Below, piece after piece: positions 4,740 to 27,749 of a DNA stretch of 64,000 bases. The translations under genes were made by a program, and so were the position numbers. The DNA comes from Nymphaea colorata (Eukaryota; Streptophyta; Magnoliopsida; Nymphaeales; Nymphaeaceae). How positions within the stretch are numbered: the first letter of the stretch is position 1; each line of letters opens with the position of its first letter. The DNA lies in NCBI RefSeq assembly GCF_008831285.2, contig NC_045138.2, positions 15,285,934 to 15,349,933 on the forward strand, given 5' to 3'. Below the pieces are notes generated by a model that saw only the letters and a program-made list of their open reading frames with translations, did not search any database and was not told the DNA's origin.

Positions 4740-5497
4740 ATTTTGACCTCATGCAGTAATAAAGTGTCCAAACTCTTATAGAACTTAAAGTGGCTCGAGT
4801 GGTGACAGGGTATGTCACTTCATGGGATTGGTTGTGTTTGTCCTGGACGATCAGGTTGCACTCCACATTATACCAAAAAGCATTATGAGAATAACGAAGT
4901 GAAAAGCAATCAATGGAAAGAGTACTTCTTGCGAGAAAGACAAGGTAAGGCGAGGAAGTGGAAAAAGTAAAGATTGAATAAGCGATAAGGTTTCAAAATA
5001 AAGTGCTTGGCAGTCAATTCTTGGAATATAGAACGAACGCCATGTGTCTCAAGGGTGGTGGATTGCAGCTGATGTTTGCGATAACATATTCTCTTCCAAG
5101 ATAAAGTTACACAATCAGGGGACGGTTGGCAATAGTAACAATACGTTATTATATTCATGTATTCACCAGAAAAAATAAAACATATTCATGAAACACTTTT
5201 TAAAATGTTTCATAAATCTATCCTATTTTGTAAAATTGGCAAAGGCCCATCTCGTTGACTAATCTATGCTGATGAAATTGCATTTTTTCTTGCATGTATG
5301 TTTTGTGTGATCATGAGCATATGCTCTAATACTACTCACAAAGCTCCAATGTTATGTGACTTCCGATTTAACTTTGCTGGAGACTGGGAGATGGGGTTCC
5401 CTACTATTTATTGTTCTTGCTACCATTTATTGCTTAGGTGTTTGTAGCTCACATAGAAATTCAGATTCTTTATCCTTTTGTAATGAAATAGTAGGAA

Positions 5498-7480: not shown

Positions 7481-8159
7481 AACTTACCCTAGCAGAGAGA
7501 GAAGGGGACTAGGGGGGGCAATGGCACCCCCCTCAAGTTTTGAAATTAAATAAATTTTTTTTAAAAAAAACAAAATCTCAGTTCGACCCATGTAAAACCA
7601 TTGAAATATAAAGCATTTCCCATGTTAAAAATTTCCCAAATTTTATTTAATGGTTGTACAATTATTCAGCCCTGTTAAAGATAAAATCCTGTTTGGAAGT
7701 CCCTGCGTCCTTATGTACACCCCCCCTATCAAACACAATTGCAAAAGTCCCGGATGATTTTAACATGTTTGGTATACGTTTTTCCAGTTGAATTTCAAGG
7801 ATGCGACTAGCAATCGATTACTTTTGCTTCCTGATTTTCACACCCGATACAAGCGTTTGGGACGATCAAATATGTTCTTAGATGTTTGGTAAACTCACTT
7901 GGTGCTTGGTGGGGAGGAGTACATTATACGATCTAACACGTTTATACCAATTCTAAGATTTTCCTTTTTTTAAATCTAGCGAGTCAAGATATGTAAGAGC
8001 AAAGAAGACTTAAAAGAGTCTTTAAAAAACGATATACATGTTGACTAGACCAAATTACAGCGCCAATTCCCTAGCACCATTTGAACTTCCTTAGATGTTC
8101 AATCCATGCATGCTTGTGGTCAGATCTATGACAACTAATAGATTTGGTAGAAAAAAAGG

Positions 8160-8569
8160 TTAACAGGACCGTAGATCCAAATCGGGCCCTCTTCAGCTCT
8201 AATCTGGCTGCAGAATGAGGCTGGATCCGAGTATTCGAATAGAAACGATTAAAAATCGATTTGATTCACCGGCCCGTTCAAAATGAAGCCGGACCCGACC
8301 CGACGACCGAGTAACTGAGCATTTTCCATGGCATGACAGAAACTGCAGAGAACTATCCCAAATCGACGGCATGAAAATTTTCCAACGTCCACAGGTTGGA
8401 AGCTTCCGTTCTCTCCTGCCGATTCCCCGTTTCTCCCCCACATCTCCAACTACTATATATTGAGCTTCTCGATCTTCCCTGCTCTTCATCTTTCTCCTTC
8501 TTGTTCTCTCTGTTTTTCCTGAGCCTCAACAGCTCTTCCAGTTTTACACAAATTGGCTTCCTCGCCCAC
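8160..8569 (+). promoter_or_regulatory. NHL-type promoter and leader before the repeat gene
   Basis: This region aligns by eye with the upstream regions of the intact NHL genes at 20245 and 25494. Shared words include CCAAATCGG..CCC..CTTCAG, ATCGATTTGATTCACC, GACCCGACC, GAAAATTTTCCAA and TTGGAAGCTTCC. A TATA box, TATATATT, is at 8454-8461, 116 bases before the ATG; the 20245 gene has the same box 117 bases before its ATG. The following leader (TGAGCTTCTCGATCTTCCCT and onward) is also shared. Expression of the downstream ORF is therefore plausible. Confidence 0.75.
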
Positions 8570-9064
8570 ATGGCTAACAACAACAAGAAGCCGGCGGGCA
8601 GGCTCAATAAGCCGGCGCTCAACCCCAACAAGCAGGCAGATAAGCTGGCTCTCAACCTCTACAAACAGAGAGATAAAATGGCACTCGACCTCTACAATCA
8701 GGCAAATAACCTGGCGCTCAACCTCTACAAACTGGCAGATAAAATGGCATTCAACCTCTACAAACAGGCAGATAACCTCAACAAGCCGGTATTCGATTAC
8801 CTCAACAAGCAAAACAACCTGGCAGCTAACTTCAACAAGCCGGGGGCCAACAGGATGAAAGCCGTCAACCGGGTGGCCAACGTCGACAAGCCAGCAGCGA
8901 ACCTCAACCAGCAGGCGGCCCGCCCGGTTGGCCGGGGCCATCCAATTGGCCGCCGGCTTGTTGACGTTGGCCACCCGGTTGGCCGCCCGCTTGTTGTGGT
9001 CGGGGGGCCGGCTGGCCGGGCATTCAATCGGGTTGCCAAACTCAAGAAGAAAAACCAAATGTGA
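8570..9064 (+). CDS. Novel 11-mer repeat protein inside an NHL regulatory shell
   Basis: The ATG at 8570 aligns with the start codons of the neighbouring NHL genes and opens a 164-residue frame with no LEA_2 domain and no membrane segment. Residues 23-66 are four gapless 11-mers (ADKLALNLYKQ, RDKMALDLYNQ, ANNLALNLYKL, ADKMAFNLYKQ), basic and amphipathic, in the manner of 11-mer LEA repeats but with a different consensus. Residues 67-118 are Asn/Lys/Ala-rich. Residues 123-155 form three further 11-mers (GHPIGRRLVDV, GHPVGRPLVVV, GGPAGRAFNRV). The stop lies in CCAAATGTGATGTGAAC, which in intact NHL genes encodes TKCDVD, here in a shifted frame. The 3' UTR with AATAAA at 9195-9200 is also NHL-like. 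The NHL core has thus been replaced by a repeat array. It may be a young functional protein, a non-coding hairpin transcript or a decaying chimera. Confidence 0.6.
   Translation: MANNNKKPAGRLNKPALNPNKQADKLALNLYKQRDKMALDLYNQANNLALNLYKLADKMAFNLYKQADNLNKPVFDYLNKQNNLAANFNKPGANRMKAVNRVANVDKPAANLNQQAARPVGRGHPIGRRLVDVGHPVGRPLVVVGGPAGRAFNRVAKLKKKNQM
8866..8981. repeat. Inverted repeat within the 11-mer gene
   Basis: Arm 8866-8895 and arm 8952-8981 are reverse complements over 30 bases with two mismatches, separated by 56 bases. The minus strand across the second arm therefore encodes almost the same peptide (NRVANVNKPAAN) as the plus strand across the first (NRVANVDKPAAN). The 33-base repeat unit thus occurs in both orientations, and the RNA could fold into a hairpin. 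Confidence 0.85.
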
Positions 9065-9290
9065 TGTGAACCACTATTAAGTTTTGAGCTTTTCTTTTTT
9101 TTCAGTCTTTGTTGTGTCCATAAGATCATCTTACTATGTTTATTAAAGATGTGTTTGGTGATCGAGATTCTTTTGTTTTTTCTTTTTCTCATATAATAAA
9201 GCTCATTTTCTCTGAGGGGGACACATGTATTTATATTTTTCTTTGTATTGTTATTTTTATTGTAGCTGAGCTTTTGGTTGGAAGTTAGGT
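9065..9290 (+). terminator. NHL-type 3' UTR and poly(A) signal after the repeat gene
   Basis: The order TTGTGTCCA, ATCTTACT, GTGTTTGGTGATCGAGATTC, AATAAA (9195-9200), GCTCATTTTCTCT, ACATGTATTTAT matches the 3' flanks of the NHL genes ending at 20955 and 26204. Confidence 0.7.
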
Positions 9291-9299
9291 TATTCAGCC

Positions 9300-9427
9300 G
9301 TTGAGCTCATGCAGTTGTTGTAAAGCGTGCAAACTCTCATAGAACTTAAAGTGCCACAAGAGGTGAAGGGGTATGTCACTTCATGGGATTGGTGGTGTTT
9401 GTTCAGGTCGCACTTTATGAGGCCTGC
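9300..9427 (+). repeat. Duplicated NHL flank, copy 2, part left of the transposon
   Basis: This stretch aligns with 4750-4870 (shared words include CATAGAACTTAAAGTG and TATGTCACTTCATGGGATTG). It breaks off exactly at the target-site duplication of the hAT-like element, and the alignment resumes at 14724. Confidence 0.75.
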
Positions 9428-10810: not shown

Positions 10811-12277
10811 GTGGCTCAGAACCTTATGGAGCGGGGTGATTTGTTGGTTTCCTCTCGTGAGATTAAGCTCCACCACAGTCTCCTTAAGCTTATCAAGATG
10901 GATGAGGAGCGGTTAAGGCCAAAGGCTCATGTGAGGTGGATGAGGGAGGGCGATTCTAACTCAAATTTTTTTCATGCCATTGCTAAAGGCAGACAACAGA
11001 GAAACCATATCCGCACTATCAAGGATGGAGAGAGGGTTCTCTCTGACATGGATGAAATTTTTGCATCTTGCACTACTTACTTCAAAGACCTATTGACTGA
11101 CAATGCGGGTTCGGGGCTCCTTCCTTTCAATGTCTGTCCAGATCTAAGGGTGACAGAAGAAGAAAATGAGCTTTTGGTGAGTCCTATTCGCGATGAAGAA
11201 ATACAATGGACAATATTAAGGGCGAATAAGGATTCAGCTGTTGGACCAGATAGATTCAACAATCACTTTGATCAAGCATACTGGTTCATCATTGGGCCCG
11301 ATGTGAGCCTCGCAATTAAGGAGTTTTTCCGGTCTGAACGCATGGTAAAAGGGACCAACAAAACACATGTTGTTTTTCTTCCCAAAGAAGAGGGTGCATG
11401 CACTATGAACAAGTTTTGGCCTACCTCTCTTTGCAATAGCATTTTACGCATGAAACCCATTTTGAGTAGCATTCTTCACCGGAATCAGGCAGTATTTTTT
11501 ATGGGACGCAGCATCCAGGACAGCTTTTTACTCAGTCAAGAGGTGATTCAATCACTTGCTCACAAGAAGTCTAAAGCTTCGTGCATTAAAATCAACCTTA
11601 GCAAAGCTTATGATGGAGTGAATTGGCGGTTCCTAGAGAGTAGCCTTAAGCTGCAAGGCTTTTGCTCCAACTGGACTAGGCGATTTATGGTTGTTGTTTC
11701 TACTGTCTCCTCTGCACTGCTCATTAACGATAAGGAAGGATCATGGTCCTTCACCTCAAAGGGGTTGCGGCAAGGAGATCCCTTATCCCCCTACTTGTTC
11801 ATCATTATGATGGAAATACTTAATCGCAGCATGTTGGCTTATATGCAATTGGGTAAGATCCGTTGCCTAAAGGTTAGCGCTCTAAGCTCTATTCATTCCT
11901 CCTTCTATGTTGATGATGTCTTTGTTTTCATTGAAGGTAGGAAAAAATTCCTTTTAAGCCTTAGAGATTGTTTCTTTGAGTTTGAGGCTTGTTCGAAGCT
12001 CAAAGTTAATCCCAACAAGACCTCTATTTTTTTCTTTAATATTTCTGACGTCGAGTGTAGTAGACTATGTGCTATCACGGGCTGGAAAAGAGGTATCTTT
12101 CCAGTTATGCATTTGGCTCTGCCTCTCCAAGGACATGCCATCACGGAGAGCCAATGTGAGCACATAGTGATTAAAGTTAATCAGAAGTTGACTGGCTGGA
12201 AGCAGAAGCTGCTTTTTTATGTTGGAAAACTCTGCTTGGTTAAGCATGCTTTGACATCTATCCTAGCTATTGGATGA
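10811..12277 (+). pseudogene. LINE reverse transcriptase ORF (open segment, frameshifted at its end)
   Basis: This 488-codon open stretch carries the core of a non-LTR reverse transcriptase. Landmarks are the HVVFLPKEEGA segment, the INLSKAYDGVNW palm motif, the GLRQGDPLSPYLF motif and the catalytic FYVDD box (residues 367-371), where plant L1 elements usually have an FADD or YADD type. Upstream residues WMREGDSNSNFFHA are typical of plant LINE ORF2. The reading frame breaks near 12265 and continues in another frame at 12274-12549 (the conserved WIPPSTCHQIEKLCSGFIWRD region). The piece is therefore part of a dead ORF2, not a cellular gene. Confidence 0.9.
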
Positions 12278-16830: not shown

Positions 16831-17483
16831 ATTAGGGCAGTGAGGAGGGCCATGCAAACAGGCCAAGTTTTTAAAGTTTAAAATTTTAGTCTGGCCCATG
16901 TAAAATTTTTGAAAAAAAAAAAAAGAAGAAGAAGCAATGCCCATGTTAAACATTACCAAAATATTTATTTGATGGTTACAACCATTCAGCCTGTTAAACA
17001 TAAAATCCCGGCATGGACAATGTGTTTGGAAGTCCGTACGCCCTTCTGTACATCCTCTGATCAAACACAGTTGCAAAAGTCCCGGATGGTTTTAACATTT
17101 TTCGTATACGTTTTTTAACTTGAATATAAAGGATCTGACTAGCAATCGACTACTTTTGCTTCCCGATCTTCACACCCGATACAAATATTTGGGACGATCA
17201 AACATGCCCCGAGCGTTTAGGTAAACTCACTTGGTGCCTGGTCGGGGCTACATTATATGATCTAACAAGTTTATATCAATTCTAAGATTTTCCTTTTTCT
17301 TTTTTAATATTAATGAGTTATATGTACGCCGGCGGCCGCATAGAAGTTTCTTAGGCGAAAGCCAGCTTAGGTCTAAATCATGATACAATAAAAAGTCTAA
17401 AAATCTAGACCAACCACATGAGCTCAACATTTAGTACATAAATAATTAATCGAATGTCAAATCAGATCAACCAAAGAAGACTT

Positions 17484-17711: not shown

Positions 17712-17889
17712 AGAAACTTTAAATGTGATATAAATGTTGACCGGACCAGATTATCGCGCCAATTCCCTATTAATGCACGAACTTCCTTAGACCGATAAAT
17801 GGCCCAAACAAATAAAATAGTTACTGTTCAAACTAGGTTTGCATCAGATATATGACAACTAAATGGGTCGGCCCCAGGTCAGATGTAGA

Positions 17890-18176
17890 TTTGGCAGAAA
17901 AAAGGTTGGCAGGACCCAAGATCCAAATCGGACCCGCTTCAGGTCTAATCTGCCAGATGGTGGCTGGATCTGACTATTCGAATAGAATAGGTAGAAAAAT
18001 CAATTTGATTCAGTTTCCAGCACTCGACCGGACCAAACTCAAACCAGAAACAGACCTGAACCCAACCGAAGGACAGGGTCCAATATTTAAATCCAAATCC
18101 GTCAGCAGTATATTTAGTTTTTTTTTTTTTTTTTCCTTATAGATACCCATCATGAAAGATAGTTATATTTAACTAT
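17890..18176 (+). promoter_or_regulatory. Orphaned NHL distal promoter block
   Basis: The block matches 8150-8260 and 19320-19450 (AGGACCCAAGATCCAAATCGG). It continues into a T-rich tract and GTGGAATTTTCGTGAACCC, equivalent to 19790-19820. The proximal promoter with the TATA box found in the sister copies is missing because of the deletion described for the pseudogene. Confidence 0.65.
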
Positions 18177-18545
18177 ATGTGGAATTTTCGTGAACCCTTT
18201 TCCCGCTATTTGTATCAGGGGCATAAGAACACCACCATACTGCAGCCTGCTTTCATGGGGGAAGCTTTGTTGGTTCCTGGGAACTCCGTTGCTGGCTTCC
18301 TCGATGCTCAGAAAGCCAGTGTGTTTTACAATGTAGATGTGAAGATGAAACCCAAGATTGGGCATTTGAAGACAACCAAGTATAGTCCAAACGTCTGGTG
18401 CTTCTACTTGCAGGTTCCGTTGAACTCCATGAGCTCATCATCTTCTGCCACTGGTGGGTTCACATGGATCAAATGTGATGTGAACAGATCTTTGTTGTGT
18501 CCACATGATCTGCGTTCTACTTGCACAGATCTTACTGTGTTTTGA
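18177..18545 (+). pseudogene. NHL pseudogene lacking promoter core and 5' half
   Basis: From the codons YQGHKNTTILQ (about 18212 on), the sequence follows the C-terminal half of the neighbouring NHL proteins: GHKNT..LQPAF, SVAGFLDAQKAS, IGHLKTTKYSPNVW, SSSSATGGF and KCDVN. The start, the Cys-rich juxtamembrane region, the membrane segment and the NPN motif are absent. Comparison with the 20245 gene shows that sequence equivalent to about 19830-20668 was deleted, fusing distal upstream DNA to the middle of the coding region. The methionine that opens the frame (18177) lies in former upstream DNA. The C terminus reads past the usual CDVDYF end. It is a broken copy; production of a short protein is unlikely. 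Confidence 0.85.
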
Positions 18546-18689: not shown

Positions 18690-20244
18690 TGAAAAGTTTC
18701 ATTATGTATGAATTGGAAAATACCCATCTCATGGACTAATCTATGCTGATGAAATTGCATTTTTCTAGCATATTTTTTGGAAGTCCATGTGTCTATGTGC
18801 ATCCCCGTTTCAAACACAATTGCAAAAGTCGCGGATGGTTGTACATTTGTGGTCTACGTTTTTTCAGTTGAATCTAAAGGATCTGACTAGCAATCGATGA
18901 CTTCTGCTTCCGCAATACGTTATGTGACGTAACCAGTGGGTGCCACATGTGCCAGTCTCACAAAATTTATTTATTTTTATCTTAATAATTTATATACTTT
19001 ATTGTTTATATATATAACTGCTCTTAAAATCATTAAATTAATGCCTCCATCAACCAAAATTTCTATAACAGTTATATATGTATATATATAGAACCATCCG
19101 CGACTTTTGCTGAACACTTAGTATATAAATAATTAATTGGAATTATGGCCGAACCAAATCTAGCGAGTCAAGTTATGTAAGACAAAAGAAGCCGTAGAGT
19201 CTTTAAAGAGCGATTTAAATGTTGGCCTGACCAAATTATAGCGCCAAGTACCTAATGCCGGAAGTATGCATATGGGTCAGATCTAAGATAATTAAATGGG
19301 TCGTGGCCCCATGTCAGACTGAAATTTGGTAGAAAAAAAGGTTAACAGGACCCCAGATCCAAATCGGACCCGCTTACAGCTCTAATCTGGCTGAATGAGG
19401 CTGAATCCGACTATTCAAATAGAATCGGTAGAAAATCGATTTGATTCACCAATCCATTCATGGATGCCACATATAGTAACGTTTTGTTATTCAAAAATAT
19501 TTTAAAGGCTTCTATTTTTATTCATTTAAATATATCTTGTCCTTGTCTTTGAGAAAAGATTGATATAATAATAATTTTTTTCTGATTCAAAATTTCAATT
19601 ACTTAATCGGCCTATTCAATAGATATTTGATTCAGTTTCCGACCTTTACAACACTCGAGTGGACCCAACTCAAACCTGAACCCAAATGAAGAGACAGGGT
19701 CCAATATTTAGAGCCAAAGCCATCAGCTGATTCTTATTATAATTAGTTTTTTTTTTTTTTTCTTATAGAAACACCTCATATTTTACTATATATGGAATTT
19801 CTTTGAACCTTTTTTCCTGATATTTCCTCCAATTTTCATGGGCTCCCCAAATCGGATCCTAGATCATTAGCAGCCCGAACTTTCCTAGAAACTGGTCTCC
19901 CCAACTCGGACCCGACCCGTCGACGGACCATTCCCTTCCCTTTGGACTAACATCCTTTTCAGTTTTGGAAGCTTCCATGACATAACAGAAAGAAAACTGC
20001 ACAAACTTCCAATCGCCGCCACGACGAAAATTTTCCAATGTCCACACATTGGAATCTTCCGTTCTCTCCTATCGGTTCCCGCGTTTCCCCCCTACATACA
20101 CAACGCGTCGCGCGTGTTTCCAACTGCTATATATTGAGCTTCTCAATCTTCCCTTCTCTTCATCTTTCTCCTCTCGATCTATCTCCTTCTTCCTGGGCCT
20201 CAACAACGCTTCAAGTTTCAGACCAATTAACTTCCTTTGCTCTC
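18690..20244 (+). repeat. Duplicated NHL flank, copy 3
   Basis: Repeats the copy 1 and copy 2 blocks: ACTAATCTATGCTGATGAAA at 18735 (also 5258), GCAAAAGTCGCGGATGG at 18822, and the promoter block at 19330-19450. It leads into the intact NHL gene at 20245. Confidence 0.75.
20128..20135 (+). promoter_or_regulatory. TATA box of the 20245 NHL gene
   Basis: TATATATT, 117 bases before the ATG. It lies in a block (CAACTGCTATATATTGAGCTTC) shared with the genes at 8570 and 25494. Confidence 0.75.
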
Positions 20245-20955
20245 ATGGCCGAGTCCAAGCCGGCCAATCCCAATGGAGCCTACTATGGTGGTGCTCAAGG
20301 GATCCCAACCCCTCCCCAGAACCCCCCACAGGCCTACTACAGCCACGGCCGCGGCCACCGCTCCTGCGGCTGCTGCTGCATCATAGGCACCTTACTCAAG
20401 CTCATCGTCTCCATTGTTGTCATTCTTGGCATCGCCGCTCTCATCATCTGGCTCGTGCTCCGGCCATCGGCAGTCAAGTTCTACGTAGAAGATGTATCGC
20501 TGACGCAATTCAACCTGGCGAACACGAGCACTCTGCACTACGATCTCAAACTGAATGTTAGCATCAGGAACCCCAACAGGAAGATCGGGATCGACTACGA
20601 CAAGCTCGAGGTGGCGGCGTACTACGCCGATGAGCGTTTCGGATGGGTTCAGCTGCCTGGTTTCTATCAGGGGCATAAGAACACCTCCATACTGCAGACT
20701 GCCTTCAAGGGGCAATCTTTGATGGTTCCTGGTGACTCCATTGCTAATATCTTCAATGAACAGAAAGCAAGCGGATCTTACTATGTAGACGTGAAGATTA
20801 AGCCCAAGATGAGGTTCAAGATTGGGCAATTGAAGACAACCAAGTATAGCCCAAATGTTTGGTGCTACCTGGAGGTTCCGTTGAACTCCGTGAACTCATC
20901 ATCACCTGCCACTGGTGGGTTCACAAGGACCAAATGTGATGTGGACTACTTTTAG
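20245..20955 (+). CDS. NDR1/HIN1-like (NHL) LEA_2 membrane protein, HIN1/YLS9 type
   Basis: The single-exon gene encodes 236 residues. The start chosen gives MAESKP, parallel to MADSKP in the sister gene of identical length. The N terminus is Pro/Tyr/Gln-rich (residues 10-38). A CGCCC cluster at 41-45 may be lipidated. One membrane helix spans about 46-72. The LEA_2 domain covers about 93-205, with NPNRKIGI at 109-116 and the YYADERFGW and YQGHKNT blocks typical of the HIN1/NHL3/NHL10 group. The family acts at the plasma membrane in defence and stress signalling. Its TATA box is at 20128 and a poly(A) signal AATAAA at 21111-21116. It faces the minus-strand NHL gene ending at 22799. It is roughly four-fifths identical by eye to the 25494 gene. 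Confidence 0.94.
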   Translation: MAESKPANPNGAYYGGAQGIPTPPQNPPQAYYSHGRGHRSCGCCCIIGTLLKLIVSIVVILGIAALIIWLVLRPSAVKFYVEDVSLTQFNLANTSTLHYDLKLNVSIRNPNRKIGIDYDKLEVAAYYADERFGWVQLPGFYQGHKNTSILQTAFKGQSLMVPGDSIANIFNEQKASGSYYVDVKIKPKMRFKIGQLKTTKYSPNVWCYLEVPLNSVNSSSPATGGFTRTKCDVDYF

Positions 20956-21110
20956 GTTTTTGGGTTTTTTTTTTTTTCTTTTCATTCTTTTTTATGTCCA
21001 CATTTGTTCTTGTTATGTGCTTTTGGACAGATCTTGCTGTGTTCATTAGATGCGTTTAGTGATTAAGATTCTTCTCTTTTTTTGGTCTTTTTGTGTGTAT
21101 ATCAGTATGT

Positions 21111-21116
21111 AATAAA
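21111..21116 (+). terminator. Poly(A) signal of the 20245 NHL gene
   Basis: AATAAA in the 3' flank. The same context, GTAATAAAA(C/G)TC, occurs after the sister gene at 26350. Confidence 0.6.
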
Positions 21117-21179
21117 ACTCATTTTCTTTACAGAGGATACATATATTTATGTTTTGCTTGGAAGTTAAGGCATTCTGCA

Positions 21180-24719: not shown

Positions 24720-25493
24720 ACATAGTCGCGTTTACGCAAACGTTTCTTATGCTAAAGACAGGTTTGAGTCCAAATCATGGTGCAATAGAACAGCAAAATC
24801 CAAACTAGATCAAATAGGTTTGAGTATTTTAGTATATAAATATTTAATTGCATGGCCGAATCAGGTCTAACCAGTCAAGTTTGGCAAGACCGAACGCTCT
24901 TTAGGGTCTTCATATTAAATGTTGAGCTGACCCACATCATTTATCAAATCATATCGAATTGTAGCCACGTCCCTAACCCCTTCTTAGACCGGAAAACCAT
25001 GGAGCCCAAACAAATTAAATGCCAAGTGTTCAAACTTGGGATGCATGTGTGGGTGGGATCTAATGTTTAGATCCAGGTCCATCTGCATATCCTTATTATC
25101 ATTCGTGTTTTTCCTGTTTCTCATAGGAATCATTGATGAGAAACAAGTATTTTCAAATGCTAATTATATGTGGACCGTCCACGATTTTTTTTTTTATGGG
25201 CTCCCAAAACCGGAACTTGGATCCAAATTAAGAAGTCAGAGACTTCCCGGAATCCGGTCAAGTCGGATCCGACCCGTCTCCATGGCTGACTTCCTTTTCA
25301 CCTCTGGCCAAGTTGGGAAGCTTCTATGAAATTCCTACTGACGGGAGGAGAAATTTACAACGTCCCCGCCGCACCACAAACAAACTTTCAACTGCTATAT
25401 ATTAAGGTTCTTGATCCTCCGTTATCTTCGTCTTCCTTTTCTGGTTCTGTCTCTTCTTCCTGAGCCTCAAGTATTCTTCAAGGTTTTGCTCTC
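24720..25493 (+). repeat. Duplicated NHL flank and promoter, copy 4
   Basis: AAATCATGGTGCAATAGAA and TTTAGTATATAAATATTTAATT match 17370-17450 and 19120-19140. The proximal part has the CGGATCCGACCCGTC word and a TATATATT box at 25396-25403, 98 bases before the ATG. The leader matches the other copies. Confidence 0.7.
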
Positions 25494-26204
25494 ATGGCCG
25501 ACTCCAAGCCAACCCACTTCAACGGAGCCTACTACGCCGGTCCACAAGGAGCCCCAACTGTCCCCCAACAGCCGCCACAGGCCTACTACCGCCCCGGCCG
25601 CGGCCACAGCTCCTGCGGTTTCTGCTGCATCATAGGCACCTTCCTCAAGATCATCATCACCATCGTTGTCATCATCGGCATCGCCGCTCTCGTTATCTGG
25701 CTCGTTCTCCGGCCGACGGCGATCAAATTCTACGTAGAAAACGCGTCCCTGACACAGTTCAACTTGACAAACACGAACACTCTGCACTATGATCTCAAAT
25801 TGAATGTTAGCATAACGAACCACAACAGGAAGATCGGGATCGACTACGACAATCTCGAGGCGGCGGCGTATTACGCCGGAGAGCGGTTCGGGTGGGATCA
25901 GCTGCCTGGCTTCTATCAGGGTCATAAGAACACCACCATACTGCAGACTGCCTTCAAGGGGCAGTCTTTGATTGTCCCTGCGGATTTCGTTGCCAATGTC
26001 TTCAATGATCAGAAAGCACGCGGGTTTTACTACGTAGATGTGAAGATTAAACCCAACATGAGGTTCAAGATTGGGCATTTGAAGACAACCAAGTATAGTC
26101 CAAAGATCTGGTGCTACTTTCAGGTTCCTTTGGACTCTAAGAACTCATCATCATCTGCCGCTGGTGGGTTCACTAGGACCAAATGTGATGTGGATTACTG
26201 GTAG
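25494..26204 (+). CDS. NDR1/HIN1-like (NHL) LEA_2 membrane protein, HIN1/YLS9 type
   Basis: The single-exon gene encodes 236 residues, collinear without gaps with the 20245 product. It has a Pro/Gln/Tyr-rich N terminus, a CGFCC cluster at 41-45, a membrane helix at about 46-72 and a LEA_2 domain at about 93-205. The signature NPN motif is altered to NHNRKIGI (109-116), which is unusual for the family. Other landmarks are YYAGERFGW, YQGHKNTTILQ and the C-terminal TKCDVDYW. The TATA box is at 25396 and AATAAA at 26352-26357. It converges on the minus-strand NHL gene at 27750-28478, repeating the arrangement 5 kb to the left. Confidence 0.94.
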   Translation: MADSKPTHFNGAYYAGPQGAPTVPQQPPQAYYRPGRGHSSCGFCCIIGTFLKIIITIVVIIGIAALVIWLVLRPTAIKFYVENASLTQFNLTNTNTLHYDLKLNVSITNHNRKIGIDYDNLEAAAYYAGERFGWDQLPGFYQGHKNTTILQTAFKGQSLIVPADFVANVFNDQKARGFYYVDVKIKPNMRFKIGHLKTTKYSPKIWCYFQVPLDSKNSSSSAAGGFTRTKCDVDYW

Positions 26205-26351
26205 CCTTGGGGTTTTTTCCTTCTTGTTTGTTTCCGTCTTTTTTCTCCATATGTTCGATTTGCACAGATCTTACCGTGTAAATTAGATCAAGATGTTGTT
26301 GGTGATTGAGATTCTTCATTGAATTTTTGGGATTTTTGTGTGTGTACATGT

Positions 26352-26357
26352 AATAAA
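26352..26357 (+). terminator. Poly(A) signal of the 25494 NHL gene
   Basis: AATAAA at the position equivalent to 21111-21116 of the sister gene. Confidence 0.6.
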
Positions 26358-26439
26358 AGTCAATCTCTCTATAGTGGATATGTTTTTTTTATGTTTGTAG
26401 TTTTATTTTATTCTGGCTGACCTTTTGCTTAGAATTTAA

Positions 26440-27749
26440 GGCATTCAGCGGTTCACTACGGATTTTTTCCTTTTTATTTGCCTCGCTGGTGGGTTTATAT
26501 AAGCTGCGTATGACTAAGTAAAACCTCTTCTCTTAGTTGTTAAGGTATTCAGACATTGACGTTGTGCTTATCTATCAAAGTATGTGTGTGTGTGCATGCA
26601 CGCGTGAGTGCTTACGATCGGTCAAATTCGGGTTCGACATAGCCATATCGATTTATTGCCTTGCGAAGGAAAAAACAAAGTCTTAAGTTGAAGGTGTCTG
26701 TTTATGTTTCGAAATTCAAAGTTGATTAAGTACCATCACTGAACTTAAATGTAAAATCAAGATAGATATGATGACTGCAGCAAATTTTCTTAGTTAAAAC
26801 GGAAGAGATTAAAGAGAGAATGAACAATACATGAAGAAGATAAACAAATCAGTTGGTAGGAAGCCCAAGAACTTACACAGAAAGAAAGACTGTAGACCCG
26901 GACCTTGCTCTGGATTAAGAAAAGTCCCGTTCGATCCTGCGACTAATTTAATAAAGATACAGCAAACTATCTTGTTGTATTGGTCAAGCTTAAATCCTAC
27001 CACTTTGCAACCTAAGCTTCTTCATGCTGTTCTCACCAGAAATTTACTTGTTACATAACAAATATAGTGAGTGGTCTGATCCTCGCTAGCCCTTGTTATT
27101 ACATTTGGCCAGACTGTACTAGAGGGTGCTGAAAGTTCAGGTTAAATTATGCTGTTTCCTTAATAAATACTTCATAAGGAATTGCAAGAAAATGCATATT
27201 AAGTGTCCAATATAATCTCATGGCCTGTCATTCACTAAAACTCCCTCTCATAGGATCCACAAACATGTTATAGAGAAACTTGGGCCAGATCATGGATGAA
27301 CATTGGGGTGCCAACCGAGTTGCAGATAGGGCTGGTCAACTGGTCGAACAGGCTGAGCCTCATGTATCTGCCTTGGTTTGTCCTATCACAAACTGGCCAA
27401 GGCGAAAAACTGTAGATTGGAATGCACTGGTTGCTCAAATGTGCTGCAAAAGGAATTGCCTCAAAAATCTGTACTTCATACTTCTAGAAATTCTTTGATT
27501 TTGCATCAACAGCAAAAGAAAAAAGGAAAATAGAAATCTCAACTGACATTCATAATTCACGAAAACTCCGCACAAGTGTTTTTGCTATCCTGGAATGGAA
27601 AATGTCATCCATTTAATCTCAACGATCTCCAGACGAGATGCACTAACAAATTCAAAGCGCAAAAATCTCATGATAGTCTGAACTTAGATAAACGAGTAAT
27701 TGATATTATTCTGTCCATACACAATAATCATACATTAGCAAGAATCACA
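26440..27749. other. Region between convergent NHL genes, second copy
   Basis: Alignable with 21180-22798 and without a gene. Short frames here (for example 27280-27498) resemble nothing I know. Confidence 0.65.

Follow-up and report, generated by a model that had tools for sequence, protein, structure and literature searches.

A repeat-built open reading frame inside the shell of a duplicated NHL gene in Nymphaea colorata

As part of a tandem array of genes bearing the LEA_2 domain, one locus in the water lily Nymphaea colorata holds an open reading frame (ORF) of 164 codons at the place where its neighbours hold the LEA_2 coding sequence (CDS). The locus lies in a window of 64,000 nucleotides (nt), that is, the whole stretch analysed here, which is positions 15,285,934 to 15,349,933 on the forward strand of contig NC_045138.2 (C1 below) in assembly GCF_008831285.2, and all positions below are those of the window unless a contig is named. 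The LEA_2-domain genes at 20.2 and 25.5 kb are taken by us to be NHL genes, and this name is used throughout. The locus has kept the shell of an NHL gene at both ends and has lost the LEA_2 core; the interval is filled by direct and inverted copies of a short repeat, for which no second copy was found in the genome (407.8 Mb in 783 contigs searched). We consider it somewhat more probable than not that an NHL duplicate was hollowed and then refilled in place by 21- and 33-nt repeats, with a frame that most likely makes a basic protein. An earlier reading, made from the sequence only, had proposed the birth of a new 11-mer repeat gene here; its shell and replaced core hold, and its 11-mer array throughout has to be given up, as 7-residue units are also present and the C-terminal part is antisense to the repeat. 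The parts of the locus are as follows.

8324..8569, plus strand: inherited NHL promoter and 5' leader, aligned with the 20.2-kb, the 25.5-kb and, more weakly, the chromosome-2 NHL genes
8570..9064, plus strand: ORF of 164 codons (8570-9061) with its stop TGA (9062-9064), starting at the ATG aligned with the NHL start
8578..8919, plus strand: direct repeats in 21-nt (7-codon, core NKPA) and 33-nt (11-codon, DKMALNLYKQA-like) units
8920..9018, minus strand: inverted copy of the repeat, whose plus-strand reading gives a Gly/Pro/Arg/Val-rich part
8818..9020, plus strand: strong hairpin predicted in the transcript from the two repeat orientations (RNA fold)
9043..9302, plus strand: inherited NHL 3' end by alignment to the NHL paralogues, with the last coding bases (frame-shifted), the 3' untranslated region (UTR) and AATAAA

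The inherited shell and the missing core

Self-comparison of the whole window revealed that 8324-8574 matches 19973-20249 with 74% identity (E 4.5e-43) and that 8447-8545 matches 25389-25486 with 78%; over 8454-8574 a separate search gave 82% to the 20.2-kb gene. The TATATAT at 8454-8460 is in register with the NHL paralogues in the alignment, and the ATG at 8570, in an ATGGC context, is aligned with the NHL start codon. At this ATG the flank homology ends; none is detected within, and it returns at the NHL 3' end, where the self-comparison pairs 9054-9243 with 20929-21159 (65%) and 9128-9302 with 26268-26453 (69%). Here ACCAAATGTGATGTG of the NHL 3' coding end is common to the locus and the paralogues in register, and the AATAAA at 9195-9200 is aligned with theirs as well. 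The old NHL end ..TTC ACA AGG ACC AAA TGT GAT GTG.. reads ..AAA AAC CAA ATG TGA in the shifted frame of the locus, with the stop TGA of the ORF made from the NHL codons TGT GAT. The shell has diverged from its 20.2- and 25.5-kb counterparts by 28-34%, and from the chromosome-2 gene by 34-41%. By its homologous promoter, leader, start and 3' end, and by its place in the same tandem array, the locus is an NHL gene by descent. The alignments to the genes at 20245 and 25494 thus bear out what had been read before, namely that promoter, TATA box, leader, start, last coding bases, 3' UTR and poly(A) signal come from NHL, that the frame is open for 164 codons, and that the old stop region is read in a shifted frame.

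The LEA_2 coding core, which the same reading had called gone, is indeed undetectable. The 164-codon ORF gives no Pfam match to LEA_2 (PF03168) up to E 1, whereas both paralogues, at 20245 and 25494, have such a match, and when the region was aligned with the NHL coding sequences N20, N25, N18, R22 and R27, shuffled sequences scored as well in 92, 153, 75, 18 and 20 of 200 trials, respectively. Together with the flank homology, the undetectable LEA_2 gives good support to a duplicated shell with a replaced core. N1, a GC-rich NHL at 1080-1700, was a candidate for residual core with 0 of 200 shuffles as good under loose gaps; stricter controls did not uphold it, as three other scorings gave 13, 22 and 44 of 1500, and a protein comparison, with 396 of 500 shuffles as good, showed nothing, and we judge its similarity to be probably one of composition. 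The residual-core test was carried on to 19 of the 42 NHL places, where L021, L027 and L030 came out somewhat high (4, 5 and 4 of 200 shuffles as good), L027 was rejected under stricter scoring (108-366 of 1500), and L013, L015, L016 and L023 gave no residual core signal with 46 to 105 of 200.

The repeat, its inverted copy and the predicted protein

The direct part includes a 33-nt array at 8607-8775 (score 205) and a 21-nt array at 8584-8637 (score 52), and the main repeat family has 11 members with spacings of 21, 21, 21, 33, 33, 33, 33, 54, 51 and 21. The clear 11-residue units are ADKLALNLYKQ, RDKMALDLYNQ, ANNLALNLYKL and ADKMAFNLYKQ, with partial units on both sides. Strict units of 11 residues, which the sequence-only reading had seen throughout, number four or five only and are confined to 8607-8775, and the remainder is made of 7-residue units and irregular spacings.

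The Gly/Pro/Arg/Val-rich part was formerly taken as a second kind of repeat; it is actually the Asn/Lys/Ala repeat turned round. Of the 36 bases of 8946-8981, 32 agree with the reverse complement of 8866-8901 and 30 with that of 8815-8850. The inverted local alignment scores 52, while 1000 dinucleotide shuffles average 17.8 and do not exceed 29, whereas in direct orientation the same part scores 22 with a shuffle maximum of 28. Moreover, NKRAANRVANVNKPAANWMAPANRAG, read from the minus strand of this part, and NKPGANRMKAVNRVANVDKPAANLNQQA, read from the plus strand, are members of one peptide family. Since the inverted copy differs from its direct counterpart by 11% (4/36) and the four 33-nt units differ among themselves by 18% (35 of 198 base comparisons), the inversion is probably the youngest step, with small numbers on both sides.

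The predicted protein of the ORF has 18.1 kDa and a pI (isoelectric point) of 10.75, with 26 Asn, 23 Ala, 19 Lys and no Glu. Its first units had been described as basic and amphipathic, and only the former property survives. The hydrophobic moment of residues 19-71 at 98 degrees is equalled in 1 of 2000 residue shuffles, which is not a fair control because such shuffles destroy the repeat period; when the unit columns are permuted with the composition kept, 2897 of 20000 are as high, hence an amphipathic helix is not significant. AlphaFold2 with the single sequence (mean predicted local distance difference test, pLDDT, 72.9) gives one helix over residues 19-115, with pLDDT 86-98 over residues 21-90 and then 74, 61 and 53 in the following three blocks of ten, and a C-terminal rest of low confidence with a short helix at 147-161. 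We give this helix little weight, as repeat sequences often yield long predicted helices.

The body of the ORF has no second copy that we could find in the 408-Mb genome, either as DNA or as protein, although the lack of a hit is no proof that a sequence is rare; two weak protein matches (E 3.6 and 6.7) are presumably retrotransposon polyprotein. One 26-mer match with 3 mismatches lies within a different gene in contig C601 and is judged to be chance. This contig (L048) is short and begins with CCCCAA-type repeats; it looks like a ciliate contaminant telomere contig, coding for a putative glutamate dehydrogenase with an internal TAA. Besides its own genome, the ORF protein has no match below E 0.36 among PDB sequences, none at E 0.01 among phages, and none confirmed among prokaryotic genomes by a pattern search sensitive to close relatives only. 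An ancient homologue, which would speak against the local derivation proposed earlier, was thus found in none of these four places.

As a possible seed of the repeat, KPALNPN (within NKPALNPN) resembles by eye the NHL N-termini MAESKPANPN and MAESKPANFN. The N20 N-terminus against the first 100 nt of the ORF is equalled in 8 of 500 shuffles of the NHL codons and 3 of 500 of the ORF codons, and against the whole ORF in 59 and 28 of 500; the N-termini of N25, R22, R27 and N1 against the first 100 nt are equalled in 73 to 493 of 500. With the first 68 nt, an equal match is reached by 35 of 1343 background windows for N20 and C2N, and by 306, 274 and 518 for N25, R22 and R27; against the plus half, 86 to 142 of 1343 do so for N25, C2N and N20. 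With 35 of 1343 background windows equal at best, an NHL N-terminus is not claimed as the seed.

Neighbouring units of the tandem array

The array around the locus has the following further parts.

7611..8270, plus strand: intergenic DNA of the tandem duplication unit that precedes the locus, matching blocks upstream of the 18.2-kb NHL remnant and the 20.2-kb NHL gene
18177..18545, plus strand: NHL remnant in a sister duplication block, 69% to residues 140-234 of the 25.5-kb NHL
20245..20955, plus strand: NHL paralogue with open CDS, LEA_2 at E 6.4e-11
25494..26204, plus strand: NHL paralogue with open CDS, LEA_2 at E 1.5e-9

Within the window, 7611-7969 matches 16932-17298 (81%), 7972-8270 matches 19156-19450 (77%) and 8139-8268 matches 17886-18012 (82%), and a genome search with 7611-8270 gave 6 matches, the query itself included, all of them within the NHL array. 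These upstream matches and the shell homology therefore make the repeat-ORF locus one unit of the array. The genome has at least 42 NHL matches at E up to 1e-5, and of the 42 found 17 lie on C1 at 15.110-15.318 Mb. In the 18.2-kb remnant the C-terminal coding part is present and the 5' shell and N-terminal part are gone; alone it has no Pfam match at E 0.001. This sister block is the mirror image of the repeat-ORF locus, with the shell lost and the C-terminal coding part kept.

The chromosome-2 NHL copy at C2:7943740-7944444 aligns with the shell more weakly than the array paralogues do. It belongs to a copy of an NHL pair (C2:7941950-7944444) in the same relative order, in which each type is represented by a single NHL as opposed to several in the window. 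The repeat ORF was not found in 39.6 kb around this pair (best tblastn E 1.7), and a four-taxon shell tree, in which the array duplication is set against the chromosome-1/2 duplication, has a support of 56 and does not separate their order. Downstream of the locus, 9301-9410 has an 83% copy at 4743-4849, perhaps a trace of another lost NHL copy. Between the two duplication blocks lies an ORF of 488 codons at 10811-12277, presumably a reverse transcriptase of a long interspersed nuclear element (LINE).

Coding capacity, rival explanations and known parallels

Three features suggest that the ORF may be coding, namely the repeat spacings, the codon usage of its first part and the inherited start. 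All 10 spacings of the main family are divisible by 3, whereas the gaps in the shell alignments are so in 2 of 13 (20.2-kb), 2 of 14 (25.5-kb) and 5 of 19 cases (chromosome-2), leading end gaps counted; as the spacings may reflect perhaps three or four independent length changes, we estimate the chance of this at roughly 1 to 4 in 100. Codon usage over 8570-8919 scores +0.05 per codon in the ORF frame, within the -0.01 to +0.14 of nine training CDSs in the window, and -0.03 to -0.55 in the other five frames, the -0.03 being that of the opposite strand in the same phase. The openness of the frame, which 66 of 5000 dinucleotide shuffles keep, is weak evidence for coding, because a frame through repeats in multiples of three is easily left open by chance. 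We put the probability of a protein product from the ORF at about one half. On the opposite strand, 8486-9058 forms an open frame of 190 codons (TTG start) in the same codon phase, which would either be incidental to the repeat or represent a second frame.

Several results weigh against a refilled gene. The inverted part scores -0.5 per codon in the ORF frame, without coding-like usage. The ratio of nonsynonymous to synonymous differences (pN/pS) among the units is 1.15 in this frame, so that no purifying selection is seen over the few sites, and two other frames have smaller ratios (0.47 in plus 1 and 0.52 on the opposite strand in the same phase). Tiled random 33-mers whose units diverge by 5, 10 and 15% stay open in 1063, 477 and 268 of 5000 cases, and when the present sequence is evolved neutrally, 19-55% of the runs remain free of a new stop. 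The whole shell (74%) is no better kept than the aligned intergenic duplication DNA (77-81%), with 8454-8574 reaching 82%, and no convincing seed for the repeat was found in the NHL genes tested. Much of this would be expected of a decaying NHL duplicate, a pseudogene whose core was deleted and whose place was taken by a non-functional minisatellite, the frame being open from its units in multiples of three. The pN/pS of about 1, the ease with which tiled repeats stay open, the fully open frame of the opposite strand in the same phase, the truncated remnant in the sister block at 18.2 kb and a shell as diverged as intergenic duplication DNA all agree with decay, whereas the spacings in multiples of three (10 of 10, against the few such gaps of the shell), the retention of the inherited ATG, TATA and AATAAA together, and the coding-like codon usage of the first part do not. 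We hold decay to be the most serious rival and yet distinctly less probable than a refilled gene.

The rivals are not fully exclusive of each other, and two more have to be weighed. The transcript is predicted to fold into a hairpin with 25 unbroken pairs, 8868-8892 with 8955-8979, and the 264-nt fold (8800-9063) has -129.7 kcal/mol and z -5.0, with 0 of 200 shuffles as stable; such a hairpin might hinder translation or feed small-RNA enzymes. The locus could accordingly be of the hairpin-RNA kind, a foldback cut to small RNAs like a young microRNA (miRNA) or small interfering RNA gene from inverted duplication, in which the ORF is incidental. Of what defines a plant MIRNA, the stable foldback is present, and neither membership of a known miRNA family nor a trans target for the stem was found: no Rfam family reaches its cut-off (at best 27.7 bits against 90 on the minus strand and 23.3 against 79 on the plus, both weak miRNA-type matches at the inverted repeat), and the 25-nt stem, which alone was used for the target search, has no further genome site within 3 mismatches besides its own two arms, hence no trans target by that pattern. 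Moreover, the arms come from the repeat of the locus itself and no other source gene was found. We regard this explanation as very improbable. Hardly better placed is the idea that recombination or insertion brought an older repeat protein or a foreign segment into the NHL shell, instead of the repeat having grown there. The want of a convincing seed in NHL genes would fit it, but neither the rest of the genome nor PDB sequences, phages or prokaryotes yielded a source, and the units vary in length in the way that local slippage and unequal copying would be expected to produce.

Returning to the refilled gene, the order of events, the transcription, the translation and any function are what we infer from the sequence. 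A tandem NHL (LEA_2) duplicate would have lost its transmembrane and LEA_2 coding core; a short unit directly after the inherited ATG would then have expanded in place into the 21- and 33-nt repeats, a piece of the array would have been inserted again the other way round, and the frame would have come to enter the old NHL end in a different register. Transcription from the inherited promoter to the inherited poly(A) region most likely continues, and the product of the ORF is most likely a helix-prone protein of 18 kDa, very basic and rich in Asn, Lys and Ala, with a loose basic tail from the antisense repeat. If translated, it might bind to acidic surfaces, for instance membranes or RNA, and would be under regulation of the NHL type.

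To our knowledge, there are few cases in which a new coding sequence has grown in the regulatory shell of a named parent, the best known being the fish antifreeze genes. Compared with the NHL/LEA_2 genes of its own array, the locus is alike in promoter, leader, start codon and 3' UTR, and unlike them in its undetectable LEA_2 sequence. The flounder type I antifreeze protein (AFP) in its Gig2 shell (PMC9122973) is alike in that an 11-residue alpha-helical repeat forms the new coding part and in that the parent genes are still in the genome; the Gig2-to-AFP layout, in which homology in the flanks reaches the start codon, is missing from the coding part and resumes behind it, is also found at our locus. 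Unlike in the flounder gene, the repeat here is Asn/Lys/Ala-rich, basic, 11-mer only in part and accompanied by an inverted copy, and its parent is a plant NHL with copies in the same array and not at a second locus. That account leaves open whether the gap was filled by a piece of the parent or by another GC-rich sequence, with its discussion favouring a retained segment (PMC9122973). If translated, the repeat-ORF locus would work like the birth of the AFP gene from Gig2; we offer only tentatively, as a view less likely than not, an antifreeze-type protein birth in a plant in which the inversion of part of the array supplied an unrelated second protein segment in a single step, making the antisense of the repeat the C-terminus of a translated protein. 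The Antarctic antifreeze glycoprotein (AFGP) from trypsinogen, as outlined in PMC9122973, is alike in that the coding part of a gene was replaced by the expansion of a short element, which there is a tripeptide repeat from a reported 9-bp amplified segment and here a repeat of 21 and 33 nt.

Group 3 LEA proteins (LEA_4; PMC6559209) share with the ORF protein a partial 11-residue period, hydrophilicity on average and a predicted helix, whereas the ORF protein has no Pfam match, no Glu and another consensus, and is basic. There is no LEA_4 match up to E 1 in Pfam, where just BUD31 appears at E 0.17 and below its cut-off, and the group 3 motif TAQAAKEKAGE (PMC6559209) shows no resemblance to the ORF units when compared by eye. 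By the tests made, the ORF protein is not a group 3 LEA protein, in keeping with the differing consensus pointed out before.

No plant case of gene birth by core replacement was among the open-access matches listed, and we do not claim its absence from print; no open-access paper on LEA_2, Nymphaea and NHL together was found either. As one genome has preserved copies of the parent, a sister copy in half-decayed state and another copy on chromosome 2, the steps of such a history can be ordered. If the ORF is not translated, the locus would be a warning that repeats in multiples of three cheaply yield long open frames; if it is, the inversion of a repeat may be proposed as a testable route by which a wholly new protein segment arises.
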